The notes under the pieces: generated by a model
Databases searched by the model: none
Seen by the model: only the letters and a program-made list of their open reading frames with translations
What the model was told of the DNA's origin: nothing
Shown: positions 1,166 through 14,500 of the stretch, piece after piece
How the letters are laid out: every line of letters starts with the position of its first letter
How positions within the stretch are numbered: the stretch's first letter is position 1
Origin: Pseudomonas taiwanensis
GTDB taxonomy: Bacteria > Pseudomonadota > Gammaproteobacteria > Pseudomonadales > Pseudomonadaceae
Length of the DNA: 64,000 nucleotides
Assembly (NCBI RefSeq): GCF_013393345.1
Contig: NZ_QJRF01000031.1
Span: forward strand, 1 to 64,000
Direction of reading: 5' to 3'
Made by a program: the position numbers and the translations under genes

Positions 1166-1185
1166 TACCGAGTGACACCACCTTC

Positions 1186-1228
1186 GGGCCCGCCCGTGCC
1201 TGGCAGCATGGTTCGGGCCTGTTTTTTT
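1186..1228 (+). terminator. Possible intrinsic terminator after AraC gene
   Basis: GGCCCG near 1187 can pair with CGGGCC at 1214-1219, followed by a seven-T run at 1222-1228. The loop is long (about 22 nt), so this is only moderately convincing. Confidence 0.4.
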
Positions 1229-1261
1229 GGTGGTGCGAGTACGGCGTTGGGCCTTTCCCTT

Positions 1262-1355
1262 GTGGGGGTGAATTCATTCGCTATGGGCAGCGCAGCTGCC
1301 CCGGCCGACCTCTTGGGCTGACCTGCGGCCTGCTTAGCGAATGAATTCGCCCCAC
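1262..1355. repeat. R1 dispersed palindromic repeat, copy a
   Basis: Terminal arms GTGGGGGTGAATTCATTCGC and its complement at 1334-1355 enclose a second palindrome (GGGCAGCGCAGCTGCCC). It is one of at least six ~94-bp copies in the window (also 7019, 17701, 24451, 39686, 60458). It lies immediately left of the creatinine cassette. Confidence 0.9.
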
Positions 1356-1403
1356 GGTAAAAAGCGGTTTGCGCCTGCCGGCAAACCTGAGTCACCCCAC
1401 CTT

Positions 1404-1515
1404 CCCTCACCCCAACCCTCTCCCAGAGGGAGAGGGGGCAGTCCGTGCGCGCTTGGCACGTCGCATCCAGCCTGAGTCACCCCTCTCCCTCCGGGAGAGG
1501 GGCCGGGGGTGAGGG
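1404..1515. repeat. R2 dispersed repeat pair, copy a
   Basis: Two facing hairpins: CCCTCACCCCAACCCTCTCCC with GGGAGAGGG, then CCCCTCTCCC with GGGAGAGGGGCC and GGGGGTGAGGG. The outer and inner arms are mutually complementary, so the whole can fold as one large cruciform. Further copies lie at 11080 and 16188. Confidence 0.85.
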
Positions 1516-1583
1516 TGCCCAATCCCCCGCTCGCAGTCATCAAAGACACCGCGGATCGCAACCAACCCACCCCAGCGGATCTG

Positions 1584-1640
1584 ACCAATTACGGGTCGGA
1601 TACGTACAAAAAATGGCGGGGACCTTCTGTTGCAATGCTT
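1584..1640 (+). promoter_or_regulatory. Conserved regulatory element upstream of creatinase (copy A)
   Basis: A block containing GGGTCGGAT at 1593, GTACAAAAA at 1604 and CTTCTGTTGCAATGCT from 1624 aligns without gaps to a block at 4572-4626 upstream of the creatininase gene. The spacing between the first and last conserved words is identical (22 nt). Sharing by two functionally linked catabolic promoters implies a common operator/promoter. No regulator is assigned; the inner TTGTACAA-like word in copy B is palindromic. Confidence 0.65.
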
Positions 1641-1699
1641 TCCAACGGCCCACCAGCCCGGTGAGTCGAGTCACTGGAAAACAACAAGGGTTCACCGCC

Positions 1700-2911
1700 A
1701 TGCAAATGCCCAAGACGCTCCGCATCCGTAACGGCGACAAGGTCAAATCCACCTTCTCCGCCCAGGAATTCGCCAATCGCCATGCCAAGCTGCGCGCCCA
1801 TCTGGCGGCGGAGAACATCGACGCTGCGATCTTCACCTCGTACCACAACATCAACTACTACTCCGACTTCCTCTACTGCTCCTTCGGCCGTCCCTACGCG
1901 CTGGTGGTGACCCAGGACGACGTCATCAGCATCAGCGCCAACATCGACGGCGGCCAGCCGTGGCGTCGCACCGTCGGCACCGACAACATCGTTTACACCG
2001 ACTGGCAGCGCGATAACTACTTCGTCGCCATCCAGCAGGCCCTGCCCAAGGCCCGCCGCATCGGCATCGAACACGACCACCTGAACCTGCAGAACCGTGA
2101 CAAGCTGGCTGCCCGCTACCCGGACGCCGAGCTGGTGGATGTGGCCGCTGCCTGCATGCGCATGCGCATGATCAAGTCCGCCGAAGAGCACGTGATGATC
2201 CGCCACGGCGCACGCATCGCCGACATTGGCGGCGCGGCAGTGGTGGAAGCCCTGCGTGACCAGGTGCAGGAATACGAAGTGGCGCTGCACGCCACCCAGG
2301 CCATGGTCCGCGCCATTGCCGACACCTTCGAAGACGTAGAGCTGATGGACACCTGGACCTGGTTCCAGTCCGGCATCAACACCGACGGCGCCCACAACCC
2401 GGTGACCACCCGCAAGGTGAACAAGGGCGACATCCTCAGCCTCAACTGCTTCCCGATGATCGCCGGCTACTACACCGCGCTGGAACGCACGCTGTTCCTC
2501 GACCATTGCTCGGACGACCACCTGCGCCTGTGGCAGGTCAACGTCGAGGTGCATGAAGCCGGCCTGAAGCTGATCAAGCCCGGCGCGCGCTGCAGCGACA
2601 TCGCCCGCGAGCTGAACGAGATCTTCCTCAAGCACGACGTGCTGCAGTACCGCACCTTCGGCTACGGCCACTCCTTCGGCACCCTCAGTCACTACTACGG
2701 TCGCGAGGCCGGGCTGGAGCTGCGCGAGGACATCGACACGGTGCTGGAGCCGGGCATGGTGGTGTCCATGGAACCGATGATCATGCTGCCGGAAGGCCTG
2801 CCGGGCGCCGGCGGTTACCGCGAGCACGACATCCTCATCGTCAACGAGAACGGTGCCGAGAACATCACCAAGTTCCCCTACGGCCCGGAGAAAAACATCA
2901 TCCGTAAATGA
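1700..2911 (+). CDS. creA: Creatinase (creatine amidinohydrolase)
   Basis: The 403-aa cytosolic enzyme hydrolyses creatine to sarcosine and urea. The sequence matches, almost residue for residue, my recollection of the structurally characterised P. putida creatinase of the same length. It has an N-terminal creatinase domain (about 1-160) and a C-terminal pita-bread M24 fold (about 160-403) that lacks the metal ligands of true aminopeptidases. The catalytic histidine falls at residue 232 in the GINTDGAH motif. The ATG at 1700 is chosen because it gives the canonical MQMPKTLRIRNGDK start; the open frame continues upstream only through repeat sequence. A conserved promoter element lies about 60-115 bases upstream. 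The downstream transporter gene probably belongs to the same transcript. Confidence 0.97.
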   Translation: MQMPKTLRIRNGDKVKSTFSAQEFANRHAKLRAHLAAENIDAAIFTSYHNINYYSDFLYCSFGRPYALVVTQDDVISISANIDGGQPWRRTVGTDNIVYTDWQRDNYFVAIQQALPKARRIGIEHDHLNLQNRDKLAARYPDAELVDVAAACMRMRMIKSAEEHVMIRHGARIADIGGAAVVEALRDQVQEYEVALHATQAMVRAIADTFEDVELMDTWTWFQSGINTDGAHNPVTTRKVNKGDILSLNCFPMIAGYYTALERTLFLDHCSDDHLRLWQVNVEVHEAGLKLIKPGARCSDIARELNEIFLKHDVLQYRTFGYGHSFGTLSHYYGREAGLELREDIDTVLEPGMVVSMEPMIMLPEGLPGAGGYREHDILIVNENGAENITKFPYGPEKNIIRK

Positions 2912-2918
2912 TCCAGCC

Positions 2919-2956
2919 CACGCCCGCGCAGAGCCGACCTCCTGCGCGGGCCGTGG
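2919..2956 (+). other. Hairpin between creatinase and leader ORF
   Basis: CCACG-CCCGCGCAG pairs with CTGCGCGGG-CCGTGG around a short loop. There is no T-run, so it is more likely an mRNA stabiliser or attenuating stem than a terminator. Confidence 0.5.
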
Positions 2957-3077
2957 TTTCACGCATCACCACAACAAGAATCGACGCGCGGCATTCACGG
3001 GGCCAGAGCCCCGCGCACGCGCCGCCTTTTGACTACCCGCTGCCGAACTACACGACATAACAATAGAGGTACAGGCA

Positions 3078-3209
3078 ATGGTCAGGTTTATTGCAGGAAC
3101 GCTCCCCTGGGGAGCTGCCGACTCAGTGTTCTTCAACAACGGTCGGGGCGCTCCCGTCCATACTCCAGGCAACCAGGCGCAGCTCCCGTGTGAAGGGGGT
3201 GCCCAATGA
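3078..3209 (+). CDS. Putative 43-aa leader ORF coupled to the transporter gene
   Basis: An ATG at 3078 follows a GAGG Shine-Dalgarno-like sequence (in AATAGAGGTACAGGCA). The frame runs 43 codons (start MVRFIAGTLPWGAADS) to a TGA whose first two bases overlap the ATG of the MFS transporter in an ATGA junction. Such a junction is the classical arrangement for translational coupling. The peptide has no recognisable family, no membrane segment and no long run of one amino acid. It may be a regulatory leader or a chance frame; the transporter also has its own AAGGGGGT ribosome-binding site. Confidence 0.4.
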   Translation: MVRFIAGTLPWGAADSVFFNNGRGAPVHTPGNQAQLPCEGGAQ

Positions 3210-4549
3210 GTACATCCAACCAGACCCTGGCCTACGGCCAGGCCGGCAGCCAGATGGCCAGCAGCGAGCGCAGCACCCTCCGCCGCGCGGCGACCGCCAG
3301 CTTCATCGGCAACTTCGTCGAGTGGTTCGACTACGCCGCCTACGGTTATCTGGCCGCGGTGATCGCGGTGGTGTTCTTCCCCGCCACCGACAAGACCACC
3401 GGTCTGCTGGCGGCCTTCGCGGTGTTCGCCATTTCCTTCATCATCCGCCCCATCGGGGGCATCGTCTGGGGTCATATCGGCGACCGTTACGGCCGGCGTA
3501 ATGCCCTGTCCCTGTCCATCCTGATCATGTCCGGCGCCACCTTCTGCATCGCACTGCTGCCGACCTACGCCCAGGTGGGCATGTTGGCGCCGCTGCTGCT
3601 CCTGCTGATTCGCCTGGTACAGGGCTTCTCCGCCTCGGGCGAATACGCCGGCGCGGCGGCCTTCCTCGCCGAGTACGCCCCGGACAACAAGCGCGGCTTC
3701 TACACCTGCCTGGTCCCGGCGAGCACGGCGGCGGGGCTGTTGTTCGGTTCGCTGTTCGCGGCGCTGCTCTACTCGCAACTGGACACCGAGCAGCTGCACA
3801 GCTGGGGCTGGCGCATTCCGTTCCTGCTGGCAGCGCCACTGGGCCTGATCGGCCGCTACATCCGCCTGCACCTGCAGGACACGCCGAAGTTCCGTGAAAT
3901 GGAGCAGGCGATGGAGCAGAAGGAAGCCGGGCACAAGGTGCCGATCCGCGAACTCATGGGTGTGCACCGCAGGAAGGTGCTGGTGGCGATCGGCGTTACC
4001 TGCCTCAACGCGGTGGCCTTCTACCTGATCCTCAGCTACATGCCGACCTACCTCTCCACCGAGATGGGCATGACCGAAACCGATTCCTTCCTGGCGTCCA
4101 CCGTGTCACTGGCGACCTACATCGGTTTCATCTTCCTGATGGGCAAGCTCTCCGACCGCTTCGGCCGCAAGACCATGCTGATCGCCGCGTCCCTGCTGTT
4201 CCTCGGGCTCACGGTGCCGCTGTTCGGTCTGCTGGAGGGCAAGTCCTTCGCCTTCATCCTGCTGATCCAGATCGCCTTCGGCCTGATGCTGGCGATGAAC
4301 GACGGCACCCTGCCGTGCTTCCTCGCCGAGGTCTTCCCGACGCGGGTGCGCTACAGCGGCTTCGCTTTCAGCTTCAACACCGCCAACGCCCTGTTCGGCG
4401 GCACCGCGCCCTTCATCGCCACCTGGTTCATCAGCCAGACCGGCGACAAGCTGGCGCCGGCCTGGATGCTGGTGGGTGCGGCCGCCGTGGCGCTGCTGGC
4501 GATGCTCTGCATCAGCGAGACGGCGCACAAGGCGCTGGCAGACGACTAA
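3206..4549 (+). CDS. MFS transporter, metabolite:H+ symporter (MHS/ProP-like), probable creatine uptake
   Basis: The 447-aa inner-membrane protein has about 12 hydrophobic segments. MHS-family motifs are visible: NFVEWFDYAAYGYLA near residue 33, GHIGDRYGRRNAL after TM2 (the MFS loop 2-3 signature), a RLVQGFSASGEY motif in TM4, and a repeat KLSDRFGRKTML in the second half. Family members take up osmolytes and organic cations or acids with protons. Its place between creatinase and creatininase suggests creatine or creatinine as substrate; that is inference from context. The ATG follows a strong AAGGGGGT ribosome-binding site and overlaps the stop of the small leader ORF. Confidence 0.88.
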   Translation: MSTSNQTLAYGQAGSQMASSERSTLRRAATASFIGNFVEWFDYAAYGYLAAVIAVVFFPATDKTTGLLAAFAVFAISFIIRPIGGIVWGHIGDRYGRRNALSLSILIMSGATFCIALLPTYAQVGMLAPLLLLLIRLVQGFSASGEYAGAAAFLAEYAPDNKRGFYTCLVPASTAAGLLFGSLFAALLYSQLDTEQLHSWGWRIPFLLAAPLGLIGRYIRLHLQDTPKFREMEQAMEQKEAGHKVPIRELMGVHRRKVLVAIGVTCLNAVAFYLILSYMPTYLSTEMGMTETDSFLASTVSLATYIGFIFLMGKLSDRFGRKTMLIAASLLFLGLTVPLFGLLEGKSFAFILLIQIAFGLMLAMNDGTLPCFLAEVFPTRVRYSGFAFSFNTANALFGGTAPFIATWFISQTGDKLAPAWMLVGAAAVALLAMLCISETAHKALADD

Positions 4550-4571
4550 CGGACAGACCCCGGCGATCCTG

Positions 4572-4626
4572 CCAACTTCGGGTCGGATTTGTACAAAAAT
4601 CGTCCACGCGCTTCTGATGCAATGCT
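4572..4626 (+). promoter_or_regulatory. Conserved regulatory element upstream of creatininase (copy B)
   Basis: This is the counterpart of the element at 1584-1640: CCAACTTCGGGTCGGAT, TTGTACAAAAA and CTTCTGATGCAATGCT in the same order and spacing. It sits 46 bases before the creatininase ATG and implies a second promoter inside the cassette. Confidence 0.65.
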
Positions 4627-4671
4627 GCAAGCGGAAGTCCGTCTGGCGCCCTGAATTCCTGGAGTATTTCG

Positions 4672-5454
4672 ATGAGCAAGAGTGTTTTCGTAGGTGAGCT
4701 GACCTGGAAGGAGTACGAAGCGCGCGTCGCAGGCGGCGATTGCGTGCTGATGCTGCCGGTCGGTGCCCTGGAGCAGCATGGCCATCACATGTGCATGAAC
4801 GTCGACGTCCTGCTGCCCACGGCGGTGTGCCGGCAGGTCGCCGAACGCATTGGCGCGCTGGTGCTGCCGGGTCTGCAGTACGGCTACAAGTCCCAGCAGA
4901 AGTCCGGCGGCGGTAACCACTTCCCCGGTACCACCAGCCTGGACGGCGCCACCCTCACCGGCACGGTACAGGACATCATCCGCGAGCTGGCGCGCCACGG
5001 CGTGCGCCGTCTGGTGCTGATGAACGGCCACTACGAGAACTCGATGTTCATCGTCGAAGGCATCGACCTTGCCCTGCGTGAGCTGCGCTACGCCGGCATC
5101 CACGACTTCAAGGTGGTGGTGCTCTCCTACTGGGACTTCGTGAAGGACCCGGCGGTGATCCAGCAGCTCTATCCCGAGGGCTTCCTCGGCTGGGACATCG
5201 AGCACGGCGGTGTCTTCGAGACCTCCCTGATGCTCGCCCTGTACCCGGACCTGGTGGACCTGGAGCGCGTCGTCGATCACCCGCCCGCGACCTTCCCGCC
5301 CTACGACGTGTTCCCGGTCGATCCGGCGCGCACGCCAGCACCGGGCACCTTGTCGTCGGCGAAGACGGCCAGCCGGGAGAAGGGCGAGCTGATCCTGGAA
5401 GTCTGTGTCCAGGGCATCGCCGACGCCATCGAGCAGGAGTTCCCGAGCGCCTGA
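4672..5454 (+). CDS. crnA: Creatininase (creatinine amidohydrolase)
   Basis: The 260-aa product catalyses reversible hydration of creatinine to creatine, the first step of creatinine breakdown. It matches the recalled P. putida creatininase in length and almost throughout in sequence. The binuclear metal site is recognisable: Glu34 and His36 in PVGALEQHGHH, Asp45 in MNVDVLLPT, and the His/Glu of LMNGHYEN near residues 120-122. The substrate-loop motif YWDFVKDP and the EHGGVFETS segment are also present. A GGAG ribosome-binding site lies just before the ATG. It has its own conserved promoter element and is followed 88 bases later by a permease gene. Symbols vary in the literature (crnA, crn). 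Confidence 0.97.
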   Translation: MSKSVFVGELTWKEYEARVAGGDCVLMLPVGALEQHGHHMCMNVDVLLPTAVCRQVAERIGALVLPGLQYGYKSQQKSGGGNHFPGTTSLDGATLTGTVQDIIRELARHGVRRLVLMNGHYENSMFIVEGIDLALRELRYAGIHDFKVVVLSYWDFVKDPAVIQQLYPEGFLGWDIEHGGVFETSLMLALYPDLVDLERVVDHPPATFPPYDVFPVDPARTPAPGTLSSAKTASREKGELILEVCVQGIADAIEQEFPSA

Positions 5455-5542
5455 CACGGCATTGCGTCAACCCGAACAGAACAAGCGACTTCAACAATTA
5501 CAACAGCGGACCGCCACGCCGGTTCGCGAGGAAGTTTCAGCT

Positions 5543-6937
5543 ATGTCGAATTCAGACGCACACAAAGAGTACGGGCTCAGCCAGATCAAGCCCGAGGAGC
5601 GCAGTTACGGGTTCGCCGATACGGTCTGGACCTGGTTTGGCTCCGGTATCAACACCGGTTCCTGGTTCTTCGGCGGCATGGCCGCCGCGCTGGGCATGGT
5701 CTTCGTCTTGCAATACAGCCTGCTCTGGCTGCCGTTGATGATGATCCCCTGGGCGGTGGTGGCGTATATCGGCTACCGCTATGGCGCCAGCACGGCGGTG
5801 GTATCGCGTCCGTCGTTGGGCACCAAGGGCTCGCGCCTGACCGGCGTCGCTCAGTTCCTGGTGCTGATCGGCTGGCCCAGCGTGAACAGCTTCATTGCGG
5901 CCATTTCCCTCAGCCATGTCTTCGGCGCGGCGTTTGGCTGGCCGACGTTCGGCCAGCCAGGGTCAACGGGACCGATGGTCCTGGGCATCCTGCTGACTGC
6001 GGTGGCCCAGGGCGTGATCACCTTCCTCGGGCATGAGGCGATCCGCTATCTGGAGCGCGTGGCAGGCATCCTTTTGCTGGTGCTGGGCGCCTGGGTGACC
6101 TACGTGGTGCTGTCGCAGTGGGAGCTGAAGCAGATCATGGAGTTCAAGGTGGCGGCGCCAACCCACAGCGTGGCCTTCTTCATCGACCTGGCCTTCGGCT
6201 TCTCCTGGACCTGGGCGCAGGTCGCGGATTTCTCGCGCTTTTCCAAGACCGGGACGGCGGCCAGTGTCGGCAGCTGGCTGGGGCTGAACATCGGCCAGGG
6301 CTGGTTCATGGTGATAGGCGCCGTCGGTGCCATCGGCGTGGCGTTGCAGAGCGGCTTCGTCGACCCGAACAACTCCGATCCCAGTTCCACGCTGGCAACC
6401 CTCGGCCTGGGCATGGTGTCGTTCCTGGTATTGATCTTCGCCACCGTGAGCACCAACGTGACCGTGCTCTACGGCTCGGGCATGGGCCTGCTCGGTGCCT
6501 TCAAGGGCCTCACGCCGAAGAAGGCGCTGGCGATCATCGTCGTGCTGCAACTGGTGCTGTGCTTCGTGCCCATGGCCTTCGACTCCTTCCTGCATTACTT
6601 CGAAGCCTTCCTCGGGGTGATCGGCGGCATCTTCATTCCGCTCTGGACCATCATCCTGGTGGATTACTTCTGCGTGCGCGGCAAGCGCCTGTCCGACCGC
6701 GACCTGTTCGCCGAAGCCGGCGGCGCCTACTACGGCAGCAATGGCTGGAATATGGCAGGCATCGCGTCGCTGGTAGTGGGCTTCGGCGTCTACTTCGTCC
6801 TGGCCCATGTGTTCAAGGATGTCGCCGAGCAGATCACTGCGAGCTTCCCGGCGATCCTGGTATCCGGCGTCGTTTACTGGCTGCTGGCGAAGAAGCCGGT
6901 GGTGGCGCTCAGCGGAGGTGTTGAGCGGGACGCCTGA
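5543..6937 (+). CDS. NCS1-family permease (CodB-like), probable creatinine uptake
   Basis: The 464-aa polytopic membrane protein has about 12 transmembrane segments. It resembles cytosine permease CodB and other NCS1 transporters: WTWFGSGINTGSWFFGGM in TM1, SRPSLGTKGSRL between TM2 and TM3, and SWTWAQVADFSRFSK in the middle. The ATG at 5543 follows GAGGAAG; the open frame extends upstream into creatininase and is not used. NCS1 transporters import nucleobases, hydantoins and allantoin. Creatinine is a cyclic urea-like compound, so creatinine (or 1-methylhydantoin) uptake is the best contextual guess. It is the last gene of the cassette and is followed by a strong terminator. Confidence 0.85.
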   Translation: MSNSDAHKEYGLSQIKPEERSYGFADTVWTWFGSGINTGSWFFGGMAAALGMVFVLQYSLLWLPLMMIPWAVVAYIGYRYGASTAVVSRPSLGTKGSRLTGVAQFLVLIGWPSVNSFIAAISLSHVFGAAFGWPTFGQPGSTGPMVLGILLTAVAQGVITFLGHEAIRYLERVAGILLLVLGAWVTYVVLSQWELKQIMEFKVAAPTHSVAFFIDLAFGFSWTWAQVADFSRFSKTGTAASVGSWLGLNIGQGWFMVIGAVGAIGVALQSGFVDPNNSDPSSTLATLGLGMVSFLVLIFATVSTNVTVLYGSGMGLLGAFKGLTPKKALAIIVVLQLVLCFVPMAFDSFLHYFEAFLGVIGGIFIPLWTIILVDYFCVRGKRLSDRDLFAEAGGAYYGSNGWNMAGIASLVVGFGVYFVLAHVFKDVAEQITASFPAILVSGVVYWLLAKKPVVALSGGVERDA

Positions 6938-6960
6938 TTCAGCAGGTCGTGAAAAGAAAA

Positions 6961-6990
6961 CGCCGCCCCCGAGAGGAGGGCGGCGTTTTT
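6961..6990 (+). terminator. Intrinsic terminator of the creatinine cassette
   Basis: An 8-bp GC stem (CGCCGCCC / GGGCGGCG) is followed directly by five T. It lies 23 bases after the permease stop. Confidence 0.9.
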
Positions 6991-7018
6991 GTTTCCGGCG
7001 AGCGGGTTCCGTTTTCTT

Positions 7019-7112
7019 GTGGGGGCGAATTCATTCGCTATGGGCAGCGCAGCTGCCCCCGCAAGATTGATGGCAGGACTGCGTCCTGCTTAGCGAATGA
7101 ATTCGCCCCCAC
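7019..7112. repeat. R1 dispersed palindromic repeat, copy b
   Basis: Perfect 22-bp terminal arms (GTGGGGGCGAATTCATTCGC...) enclose two inner palindromes, GGGCAGCGCAGCTGCCC and GCAGGACTGCGTCCTGC. It sits directly right of the creatinine cassette, mirroring copy a. Confidence 0.95.
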
Positions 7113-7152
7113 AGAAGAGCGGTCCCACTGGAAAGCGATGTCGGTGGAGGCC

Positions 7153-8172
7153 TCAGACGTGCAACGGACTCTGCTTGCGCTCCCCGCGCGGCGAATGGCC
7201 GAAGAAGCGGCTGTAGCACTTGGAGAAGTGCGCCGGCGAGGCAAAGCCGCAGGCCAGGGCGATGTCGCGGACCTGGGACTCGCTGCGCAGCAGCAGGTCG
7301 CGGGCGCGGTTCAGGCGCAGTTCCAGGTAGTACTGGCTGGGAGTGCGGTCCAGGTACTTGTGGAACAGCCGTTCCAGCTGGCGCACCGATACCTCGTTGA
7401 GTTGCGCCAGTTCTTCCAGCTCCAGCGGCTCCTCCAGGTTGGCTTCCATGATCGCGACGATCTGGCTCAGCTTCGGCTGGGCGTGGCCGAGCTTCTGTCG
7501 CAGCGGAACGCGTTGCTGTTCGCGGGCGCCGCGCATGCGGTCGCAGAGCAGCAGTTCGGCGGCGCGGGTGGCGATTTCCACGCCGCCCGGCTCGCGGGCG
7601 ATCAGTTGCAGGGTCATGTCCATGGATGCGGTGCCGCCGGAGCAGGTGTAGCGGTCGCGATCCAGTTCGAACAGCTGGTTGGAAATGACGATGCCGGGGA
7701 ACTTGTCCTTGACCTGCTCGATGTCCTCCCAATGCACCGTGCAGCGATAGCCCTTGAGCAATTCGGCGCTGGCCAGCAGGTGGCTGCCGGTGCAGATGCC
7801 GCCCAGCGCCACGTCGTGCTGGGACAGCTTGCGCACCCAGTTGAGCAGGCGGCGGTCGTAGCGGGTCGGCATGGGGTTGGAGCCGACGACGAACAGGGCG
7901 TCCAGTGCGGGAGCGTCCTCGAAGCTGTGGTCGGGGACCACGCGCATGCCATTGCTGGCTTGCACCGGCTCGTGGTCGGCGGCGATCAGCAGGGTACGGA
8001 ACAGGGTGCGCTTGGCGGCCAGGTTGGCCATGCGCAGGGTCTCGATCGCCGAAGCGAAGCCGATGGTGGTGAAGTTGGGGATCAGCAGGAAACCGAAGGT
8101 CTTCACTGCGTCAGGCCGGGACTGGGCCTGGATTTCGTCGACGGACGGCGGCGCAAGATTCGCAACAGCCAT
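7153..8172 (-). CDS. GlxA-type AraC family transcriptional regulator
   Basis: The 339-aa product has a DJ-1/PfpI-like ligand-sensing domain (about 25-215, including CTGSHLLASAELL, the HWEDIEQV segment and TCSGGTASMDM) and an AraC HTH (about 235-330, including VRQLERLFHKYL and FSKCYSRFFGHSP). The ATG at 8172 is preferred because GGAGGAAG sits 5-6 bases upstream; a GTG at 8187 would overlap that site. It is divergent from glyA-sox and convergent with the creatinine permease. Members of this family (GbdR, CdhR, SouR, ArgR) control quaternary-amine, sarcosine and arginine catabolism. A role as the local sarcosine/creatine regulator is plausible but unproven. Confidence 0.9.
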   Translation of the reverse strand: MAVANLAPPSVDEIQAQSRPDAVKTFGFLLIPNFTTIGFASAIETLRMANLAAKRTLFRTLLIAADHEPVQASNGMRVVPDHSFEDAPALDALFVVGSNPMPTRYDRRLLNWVRKLSQHDVALGGICTGSHLLASAELLKGYRCTVHWEDIEQVKDKFPGIVISNQLFELDRDRYTCSGGTASMDMTLQLIAREPGGVEIATRAAELLLCDRMRGAREQQRVPLRQKLGHAQPKLSQIVAIMEANLEEPLELEELAQLNEVSVRQLERLFHKYLDRTPSQYYLELRLNRARDLLLRSESQVRDIALACGFASPAHFSKCYSRFFGHSPRGERKQSPLHV

Positions 8173-8552
8173 GGGTTCTTCCTCCACTGCATCGACTGTC
8201 GTTTTTGGGTATTGGCGGGTGAGGCAGGAGTCGAAGTGCAGTTCTGTCTTTTTATTGTTCTGAGGCGCGGGAGCGAGCCTGCGCCGGGGTCCAGCTTACA
8301 CCCATTCCAGCCCTGCATCAGCGGCGTTCCTGCGCGATATCCGGGGGCTGGCGGAGAGGTCTTCGGTAATCGAACGGTTTTACTTCGCTGCCAGGGTAGG
8401 TTTGGGCATTTACACGTCGCAAACAGGCAAACGGGGTGTCGGACTAACTCGCACAATCGGCCGCAACAGGCTGGCACCGACCGTATTGCAGCGGTAGGCG
8501 CCAAGCCCCCAAAACAACAGAGACGACAGCGGGTTGTCGCAGGAGATCATCG
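8173..8552. promoter_or_regulatory. Divergent intergenic region between AraC gene and glyA-sox operon
   Basis: These 380 bases contain no credible gene. They must hold the promoters for both the leftward regulator and the rightward operon. I do not see a clean sigma-70 pair or a perfect operator; a short direct recurrence of GCAAACAGGCAAAC occurs near 8420. The glyA ribosome-binding site is CAGGAGATCATCG. Confidence 0.4.
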
Positions 8553-11532: not shown

Positions 11533-14500
11533 GCCAGGTCAATCGCCTCCCCAAGGGTGGCCGCGTCGATCGCAGTCAACCGCTGACCTTCACCTTCAAC
11601 GGCCAGAACTATCAGGGCTTCGCGGGTGACACCCTGGCTGCCGCCCTGCTGGCCAACGGCGTCGACATCGTCGGCCGCAGCTTCAAGTACTCCCGTCCGC
11701 GCGGCATCGTCGCCGCCGGTGCGGAAGAGCCCAACGCCGTGCTGCAGATCGGTTCCACCGAGAGCTCCCAGGTGCCGAACGTGCGCGCCACCCAGCAGGC
11801 CCTCTACGCAGGCCTGGTGGCGACCAGCACCAACGGCTGGCCGAACGTGAACAACGACGTCATGGGCATCCTCGGCAAGGTCGGCGGCTCCATGATGCCG
11901 CCCGGGTTCTACTACAAGACCTTCATGTACCCGCAGAACCTGTGGCTGACCTACGAGAAGTACATCCGCAAGGCCGCTGGCCTCGGTCGTGCCCCTCTGG
12001 AAGTCGACCCGGACATCTACGACCACATGAACCAGTACTGCGACGTGCTGGTGGTTGGCGCCGGCCCTGCCGGTATCGCCGCCGCCCTGGCCGCCGGCCG
12101 CAGTGGCGCCCGTGTGATCCTGGCTGACGAGCAGGAAGAATTCGGTGGCAGTCTGCTGGACACCCGCGAAACCCTGGACGGCAAGCCCGCTTCGGAGTGG
12201 GTGACCAAGGCCATCGCCGAACTGGCCAAGCTGCCGGAAGTGACCCTGCTGCCGCGCGCCACGGTGAACGGCTATCACGACCACAACTTCCTCACCATCC
12301 ACCAGCGCCTGACTGACCACCTGGGCGAGGTCGCGCCCCATGGCCAGGCCCGTCACCGCGTCCACCGCGTCCGCGCCAAGCGCGTGGTGCTGGCCGCCGG
12401 CGCCCACGAGCGTCCGCTGGTGTATTCGAACAACGACGTGCCGGGCAACATGCTCGCCGGCGCCGTCTCCACCTACGTGAACCGCTATGGCGTGGCCCCG
12501 GGCCGCCAGCTGGTGCTGTCCACCAACAACGACTACGCCTACCGCGTCGCGCTGGACTGGCTGGATGCCGGCCAGAAAGTAGTGGCTGTGGCCGATGCCC
12601 GCAGCAACCCGCGCGGCGCCTGGGTCGAAGAAGCCCGCGCTCGTGGCGTGCGCATCCTCACCGGCAGCGCCGTGGTCGAGGCTCGTGGTAGCAAGCGCGT
12701 CACCGGTGCCCGCATCTGCGCCATCGACCTGAAGAGCCACAAGGTCACCAGCCCCGGTGAAGTGGTGGATTGCGACCTGATCGCCAGCTCCGGCGGCTAC
12801 AGCCCGGTGGTACACCTGGCGTCGCACCTGGGCGGCAAGCCGACCTGGCGTGAAGACATCCTCGCCTTCGTGCCCGGTGAAGGCTTCCAGAAGCGCATCT
12901 GCGCCGGTGCCGTGAATGGCGTGTTCGGTCTGGGCGATGCCCTGGCGGACGGTTTCGAGGCCGGTGCCAAGGCTGCGGCCGAAGCCGGCTTCAAGCTGGT
13001 CGAAGGCACCGTACCGAAGACCGAGAAGCGCAAGGAAGAAGCGACCGTGGGCCTGTTCCAGGTGCCGCACGACAAGTCCACCTCCCGTGCGCCGAAGCAG
13101 TTCGTCGACCTGCAGAACGACGTCACCTCCGCCGGTATCGAACTGGCCACCCGTGAAGGCTTCGAGTCGGTCGAGCACGTCAAGCGCTACACCGCGCTGG
13201 GCTTCGGTACCGACCAGGGCAAGCTGGGCAACATCAACGGCCTGGCCATCGCCGCTCGCTCGATGGGTATCTCCATCGCCGAGATGGGCACCACCATGTT
13301 CCGCCCGAACTACACCCCGGTGACCTTCGGCGCTGTCGCCGGTCGTCACTGCGGCCACCTGTTCGAGCCCAAGCGTTACACCGCGATGCACCGCTGGCAC
13401 CTGGAGCAGGGCGCCGAGTTCGAGGACGTCGGCCAGTGGAAGCGCCCGTGGTTCTTCCCCAAGCGCGGCGAAGACATGCACGCTGCGGTCGCCCGCGAGT
13501 GCAAGGCCGTGCGTGACAGCGTGGGCATCCTCGATGCGTCCACCCTCGGCAAGATCGACATCCAGGGCCCGGATGCCCGCGAGTTCCTCAACCGCGTGTA
13601 CACCAACGCCTGGACCAAGCTGGACGTGGGCAAGGCCCGCTACGGCCTGATGTGCAAGGAAGACGGCATGGTCTTCGACGACGGCGTGACCGCCTGCGTC
13701 GCCGAGAACCACTTCATCATGACCACCACCACCGGCGGTGCCGCCCGGGTGATGGAATGGCTGGAGATCTACCACCAGACCGAATGGCCGGAGCTGAAGG
13801 TGTACTTCACCTCGGTCACCGACCACTGGGCCACCATGACCCTGTCCGGCCCCAACAGCCGCAAGCTGCTGGCCGAAGTCACCGACATCGACCTGGACAA
13901 GGACGCCTTCCCCTTCATGAGCTGGAAGGAAGGCCTGGTAGGTGGTGTGCCGGCTCGTGTGTTCCGCATCTCCTTCACCGGTGAGCTGAGCTACGAAGTG
14001 AACGTGCAGGCCGACTACGCCCTGGGCGTGTGGGAAAAAATCGTCGAGGCCGGCAAGAAGTACAACCTGACCCCGTACGGCACTGAAACCATGCACGTAC
14101 TGCGGGCCGAGAAGGGCTTCATCATCGTCGGCCAGGACACCGATGGCTCGGTGACCCCGGACGACCTGAACATGGGCTGGTGCGTGGGTCGCAACAAGGC
14201 GTTCTCGTGGATCGGCTGGCGCGGCATGAACCGCGAAGACAGCCTGCGCGAAGACCGCAAGCAACTGGTAGGCCTCAAGCCCATCGACCCGAACAAGGTG
14301 CTGCCGGAAGGCGCCCAGCTGGTGTTCGATCCGAAGCAGTCCATCCCGATGAAGATGGTCGGCCACGTCACCTCCAGCTACATGAGTTCGACCATGGGTT
14401 ATTCCTTCGCCATGGCCGTGGTCAAGGGTGGCCTCAAGCGTATGGGCGAGCGTGTCTTCGCGCCGCTGGCCGATGGCAGCGTGATCGAAGCCGAAATCTG

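Follow-up and report, generated by a model that had tools for sequence, protein, structure and literature searches.

The described sites closest to the element considered here are those of the Pseudomonas aeruginosa regulators CdhR and ArgR. According to PMC5806209, the CdhR site at caiX has GGTCGC half-sites in direct repeat, separated by a 15-bp spacer; it is described as resembling the GbdR, SouR and ArgR sites and lies upstream of the promoter, at which CdhR is a class I activator. The ARG box of ArgR, as given in PMC10963909, reads TGTCGC-N6-G-N-AA in tandem copies 5 bp apart, the second less conserved, and in Pseudomonas putida KT2440 the spacing of such boxes is variable. With these sites we compare a conserved block that occurs twice in a 64,000-nucleotide stretch of Pseudomonas taiwanensis DNA (contig NZ_QJRF01000031.1, positions 1 to 64,000; hereafter the window), once before the creatinase gene creA and once before the creatininase gene crn. 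We consider it very probable, on the pattern of conservation and co-occurrence, that each block is an activator-dependent promoter of a creatinine/creatine regulon, run in class II fashion by the AraC/DJ-1 regulator encoded at 7153-8187.

A regulator of creA has reportedly been described in KT2440, in a 2022 study by Hinkel et al., under the name CahR. CahR resembles the 7153-8187 protein in being of the AraC/DJ-1 (GATase-1-like) type, and its reported target, creA, is also a proposed target of that protein. In distinction from the CahR system, the box is here defined base by base and is found also before crn and before an ATP-binding cassette (ABC) transporter.

With the CdhR site the block shares a direct repeat with a 21-bp period, and with the ARG box a tandem arrangement of the same period, the half-site of the block being GGTCGG-N8-AA. 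Unlike the CdhR site, the proximal half-site of the block overlaps the -35 region and has GGTCGG in place of GGTCGC. Unlike the ARG box, the block has GGTCGGAT and a conserved C before AA, and its spacing is constant in all aligned sites whereas that of the KT2440 boxes varies. A literature search, with most subscription papers outside its reach, found no description of the block or of a Pseudomonas creatininase regulator. An earlier note on this DNA had called the element apparently undescribed, which is too strong given the resemblance to the published ARG box and CdhR site. As far as searched, the exact box and its copies at the creatininase and the ABC importer are new; the parts are of known type.

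Anatomy of the block

Gapless alignment of 1585-1639 with 4572-4626 gives 42 identities over 55 bases, and a repeat search stretches the similarity to 69 nucleotides (1571-1639 and 4558-4626, 72% identity). The three words at equal spacing that the earlier note had picked out are there, in a register one base away from the one it gave, since 1586-1640 against 4572-4626 yields 16/55 identities. Dinucleotide shuffling of the upstream regions, repeated for 1000 pairs, never gave more than 32/55 identities, and no further match above 29/55 to either copy was found elsewhere in the window on either strand. In the whole genome (6.69 Mb) the strict pattern with up to three mismatches has two matches, as does a looser pattern with up to two. 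The reversed pattern, used as a control, has none there and a single match (G055) across 119 family genomes.

The regions upstream of creA and crn were aligned without gaps, using hits of at least 75% identity and sites with at least 19/33 matches. Identical sites were counted once; some loci, L003 and L090 for example, appear to be the same genomes. The alignment holds 47 different sites for creA and 35 for crn, and this retention in relatives supports the earlier proposal of an operator and promoter common to creatinase and creatininase. So defined, the block consists of a direct repeat with a period of 21 bp, NCGGAT-N5-CAA, and, at an invariable distance without gaps, an extended -10 element, TGnTnnAAT. 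In the window the parts and the genes that they precede are as follows.

1575-1588, + strand: creA operator, distal half-site GCGGAT-N5-CAA (column conservation in the 47 creA sites; 21 bp the best offset)
1595-1609, + strand: creA operator, proximal half-site GTCGGAT-N5-CAA, overlapping the expected -35 at 1608-1613 (columns conserved in 47 creA and 35 crn sites)
1628-1636, + strand: creA extended -10, TG-T-TGCAAT, hexamer at 1631-1636 (TG-n-TnnAAT in nearly all sites)
1700-2911, + strand: creatinase creA, 403 amino acids (Pfam Peptidase_M24 and Creatinase_N)
4562-4575, + strand: crn operator, distal half-site, a weaker copy (21-bp offset best in the crn sites)
4582-4596, + strand: crn operator, proximal half-site GTCGGAT-N5-CAA (pattern match and conserved columns)
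4615-4623, + strand: crn extended -10, TG-A-TGCAAT, hexamer at 4618-4623 (TG-n-TnnAAT conservation)
4672-5454, + strand: creatininase crn, 260 amino acids (TIGR04448, 381 bits, cut-off 235)

Numbering the first G of GGGTCGGAT as 0, both sets show no or almost no variation at C-7, A-6, T-3, C-1, G1 to A7 and C14-A15-A16 in the upstream part, and T33-C34-T35-G36, T38 and A41-A42-T43 in the downstream part. Columns 17 to 32 vary in sequence at a constant length of 16 bases. When offsets of 14 to 29 were tried, 21 was the best for the repeat in the creA sites (8.6/14 matches, the next offset 6.1) and again in the crn sites (7.1/14, next 5.3). GGTCGG-N8-AA, that is a GTCG half-site with AA eight bases past the six-base core, is invariant or nearly so in both sets. 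A variable 11-base stretch downstream of GGTCGG was considered as the second half-site and dropped, the conserved copy being 21 bp upstream.

The expected -35 falls in columns 15-20, within the proximal half-site, and transcription of creA is predicted to start near 1643. At most sites the -10 has TG-n followed by TGCAAT or TCGAAT; the rare TATCAG, TATCTG and others keep the TG-n-T frame, and L147 has TAAAAC before its ABC operon. Within a group creA and crn share one of the two common forms. Co-evolution of regulator and operator was discarded as the reason for the two forms, the ABC promoters bearing the other form in the same genomes (L012 and L020).

Could the downstream half be a promoter of another class? 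GG-N10-GC, found in the creA copy of the window, allows a sigma-54 promoter to be read over that block. We give this next to no credence and have rejected it, as the motif is not conserved: the consensus for GG is at most 0.53 in both columns across the 47 creA sites, GG is missing from the crn copy of the window, and many sites have TTCGAAT instead of TTGCAAT.

Genes preceded by the block

A scan of named genomes for creatininase relatives gave 80 loci, of which 44 are from Pseudomonas or filed so (L003-L044, L074 and L078). A weight matrix derived from the creA and crn sites was run on these 44 together with the window; loci from the genus genomes considered below are not among these 45. The block is upstream of creA in 42/42 cases and upstream of a PotD-like ABC substrate-binding gene, at the head of its operon, in 27/27 (27 of the 45 loci). 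It precedes crn in 33/33 cases where neither creA nor the ABC ATPase gene lies shortly before that gene, and in 0/12 where crn follows either within 400 bp. The training set had no part in the ABC and internal-crn counts. A model trained on creA sites only gives the ABC sites, which were not in its training, 30.1 to 76.9 bits, and 121 upstream regions of other genes -6.7 bits or less, the top 14 all belonging to glyA1. Nothing above 14 bits was obtained with the weight matrix in any of the 36 non-Pseudomonas loci.

Among 18 genus genomes, pattern searches recovered the block in 11 with the strict form and in 12 with the looser one of up to two mismatches, the two-mismatch match in G015 being taken as chance. 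The block recurs across Pseudomonas, and the similarity that the earlier note had seen in one genome is present in relatives. The assignment of the element to creatinase and creatininase in that note is supported and too narrow, the ABC transporter operon being the further member.

Another explanation might be that the conserved words are merely a shared promoter, duplicated with its neighbourhood and alike through recent common descent, with no dedicated regulator. Within a single genome both copies and their spacing are indeed alike, and related species inherit the cluster as a unit. We nevertheless judge this very improbable. The upstream 21-bp repeat is as well conserved as the -10, and the 16 bases separating the two are free to vary in sequence but not in number; the block stands also before an unrelated gene, that of the ABC substrate-binding protein; and it is kept from the resinovorans group through the putida and fluorescens groups.

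The ABC operon under the block encodes the substrate-binding protein (L010:4999-6126), two permeases and an ATPase (L010:4999-8952 and counterparts in the 27 loci); in some loci crn is a downstream gene. Further blocks at L037 8734 (31.6 bits) and L042 8808 (40.7 bits) are divergent from crn, and no ABC substrate-binding gene was found next to either at the thresholds used. L015 has two creA genes (6742-7953 and 12019-13227), each 89% identical to that of the window and each with its own block.

The candidate regulator

The gene proposed to encode the regulator of both blocks is the following.

7153-8187, - strand: AraC-family regulator with a DJ-1/PfpI domain; the open reading frame starts with GTG at 8187, with an ATG at 8172 (HTH_18 and DJ-1_PfpI)

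The protein has a C-terminal AraC helix-turn-helix (HTH_18, 83.2 bits, cut-off 33.6) and an N-terminal DJ-1/PfpI, GATase-1-like domain (DJ-1_PfpI, 63.7 bits, cut-off 26.6). It is not GbdR itself: it scores 386.5 bits with NF052371, under the cut-off of 480, and the GbdR of this genome is C25:760-1839, with 651.4 bits. The block, with at most one mismatch, is in 13 of the 119 family genomes, and a match to the protein (E at most 1e-110) is in the same 13 (four genera). This gene, which the earlier note delimited as 7153-8172, is the best regulator candidate.

Matches to creA (E at most 1e-120) occur in the 13 block-bearing genomes and in G116, which has a 66% identical creA and is also without the regulator. 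No block was found in the 9 kb read around this divergent creA of G116, or around the second creA of G095, likewise 66% identical. In G088 the regulator gene is some 1.5 Mb from creA and crn, and both genes keep the block. In the set of 45 loci, the regulator is in the same locus as crn in 44, the exception (L028) being a 5.4-kb contig. The regulator goes with creatinase and not with sarcosine oxidase, because soxB is present in 18/18 genus genomes; 6 of the 13 genus members of the family sample lack the regulator. On the same counts we disfavour an assignment of the protein as the sarcosine regulator SouR.

In the P. putida locus L034 the gene order is regulator, MFS (major facilitator superfamily) transporter, creA. 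This fits the order in KT2440, PP_3665 (cahR)-PP_3666-PP_3667 (creA), and by this gene order the 7153-8187 protein is the putative CahR orthologue. The literature search turned up no paper naming these loci. A second type of creatinase, 66% identical and without block, was seen at L142:3749-4951 and L143:3195-4397.

The window encodes a second protein of related type, which has to be considered.

371-1165, + strand: GbdR-like AraC regulator, 264 amino acids (profile and comparison with relatives)

Might the site and promoter be real and the regulator be this protein, or GbdR itself? The gene precedes creA by 535 bp in the same orientation, and its helix-turn-helix is under strong purifying selection, with a ratio of non-synonymous to synonymous substitution rates (dN/dS) of 0.01-0.09 (15 pairs). 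Proteins of the GbdR/CdhR group bind related boxes, according to PMC5806209. However an orthologue (at least 60% identity, E at most 1e-70) is present in 10 of the 13 block-bearing genomes, being absent from G056, G080 and G108, and is also present in G026, which has no block. The copy in the window is without about 70 amino acids of the sensor domain. As for GbdR, an orthologue above the curated cut-off is encoded elsewhere in the genome, and GbdR-like genes are in many block-free family genomes. On balance we find control by either protein unlikely, and retain the 7153-8187 product as the candidate activator.

The shortening of the 371-1165 protein is itself of note. A relative in L005 has 334 amino acids, and the difference is an in-frame loss of about 70 residues of the DJ-1 domain; L003, L004, L085, L088 and L089, which form one clade, share it. 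Values of dN/dS for the rest of the N-terminal domain are 0.31-0.52 (12 pairs) and 0.10-0.18 (3 pairs), and those for intact relatives 0.15-0.26 (6 pairs). The protein seems to be conserved for DNA binding, its sensor having become relaxed or altered.

A proposed mechanism

From the sequence we infer protein binding, activation, a transcription start and an inducer or ligand in the following way. A dimer of the 7153-8187 regulator would occupy the two direct-repeat half-sites NCGGAT-N5-CAA, 21 bp or two helical turns apart. The proximal half-site would cover the -35 region, where a good hexamer is lacking. Bound there, the regulator would hold RNA polymerase at the extended -10 TGnTnnAAT, 21 bp further down, in the manner of class II activation. 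The -10 is predicted to be too poor to work alone, because the usual A at position 2 is absent and a consensus scan found no promoter-like site in 1166-7152. In the presence of an inducer, probably creatine in view of the pathway and the reported role of CahR, creA, the MFS gene perhaps included, would be switched on jointly with crn and the permease behind it. The PotD-like ABC importer of relatives would be driven by a third copy of the block.

A broader proposal, to which we give even chances, is that the block is a portable promoter cassette marking the creatinine regulon, that the ABC importer carries creatinine, creatine or a related guanidino compound, and that lineages swap importers (ABC and GABA-permease-like, where GABA is γ-aminobutyric acid, or NCS1) under one operator.

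Several points weigh against regulation of this kind by the 7153-8187 protein. The CahR study reportedly found CahR bound at only the creA promoter in KT2440. Neither common form of the -10 hexamer, TGCAAT or TCGAAT, has the A expected at position 2, and a consensus scan requiring that A found no sigma-70-like site in 1166-7152. The distal half-site of crn is weak. The counts for creA (42/42) and for the other crn genes (33/33) are partly circular, the model having been trained on those sites. The creA-only model scores the crn sites from -5.1 to 58.1 bits (median 12.1), the lowest being near the best background of -6.7; on these low scores the crn sites have drifted. Eight crn genes, that of the window among them, follow an MFS gene at 119-171 bp and do bear the block; the count treats them as not internal. 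Lastly, co-occurrence overstates independence, given the relatedness of the genomes and the ability of the cluster to move in one piece.

A related box before glyA1

One other place in the window shows the same arrangement.

8396-8457, + strand: related box before glyA1-soxBDAG, GTCGC-N8-AA, with AAT at the same place (16/20 invariant columns)

This box agrees at 16 of the 20 invariant columns common to both blocks, and the two places in the window that come next agree at 15. Its register is that of the creA and crn blocks, with GTCGCAAACAGGCAA as the difference, and it occurs also in L010, L018, L145, L146 and L147. Probably it is the site of another regulator of the GATase-1-like AraC kind. 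The genes from 8553 we take to be glyA1 and the sox genes, by position and sequence features.

The glyA1 box suggests that one promoter layout may serve several regulators of the group, with specificity in few bases. The block itself provides a base-level operator model for GATase-1-like AraC regulators, of which two members, CdhR and ArgR, had their sites compared here. It yields a testable prediction, from sequence alone, of a creatinine regulon including a candidate importer, and might find use as a promoter part responsive to creatine or creatinine.

Genes of the locus

The remaining features around the two blocks are as follows.

1-366, + strand: end of a gene for an L-serine dehydratase-like protein
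3206-4549, + strand: MFS transporter (MFS_1 and Sugar_tr)
5543-6937, + strand: NCS1-type transporter, 88 bp past crn (Transp_cyt_pur, 119.6 bits)

No NCBIfam equivalog scores above its cut-off for creA, and the name is based on domains, locus and identity among relatives. The creatininase of the window is 96% identical to that of Pseudomonas sp. JM0905a and 95% to that of P. resinovorans DSM 21078; on this comparison the genome is close to P. resinovorans.

The MFS gene has no block of its own, with nothing above 14 bits before it, and is possibly co-transcribed with creA. Two transcription units had been predicted by the earlier note. In favour, a block stands at each head, and loci of the fluorescens type have creA and crn on opposite strands, hence as separate units. 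In the window, however, no terminator-like site was found between creA, the MFS gene and crn, those on the + strand being only inside the MFS and NCS1 genes, so transcription may read through into crn.

The transporter behind crn varies. It is of the NCS1 type in the group of the window and GABA-permease-like, above the TIGR01773 cut-off, elsewhere (L010:9846-11255 for example); L147, of the same genus as the window, has the ABC and permease set. Two near-identical intergenic inverted repeats (GGGGTGAATTCATTCGCTA ... TAGCGAATGAATTCGCCCC) at 1265-1353 and about 7020-7115 are of a type common in Pseudomonas intergenic DNA.

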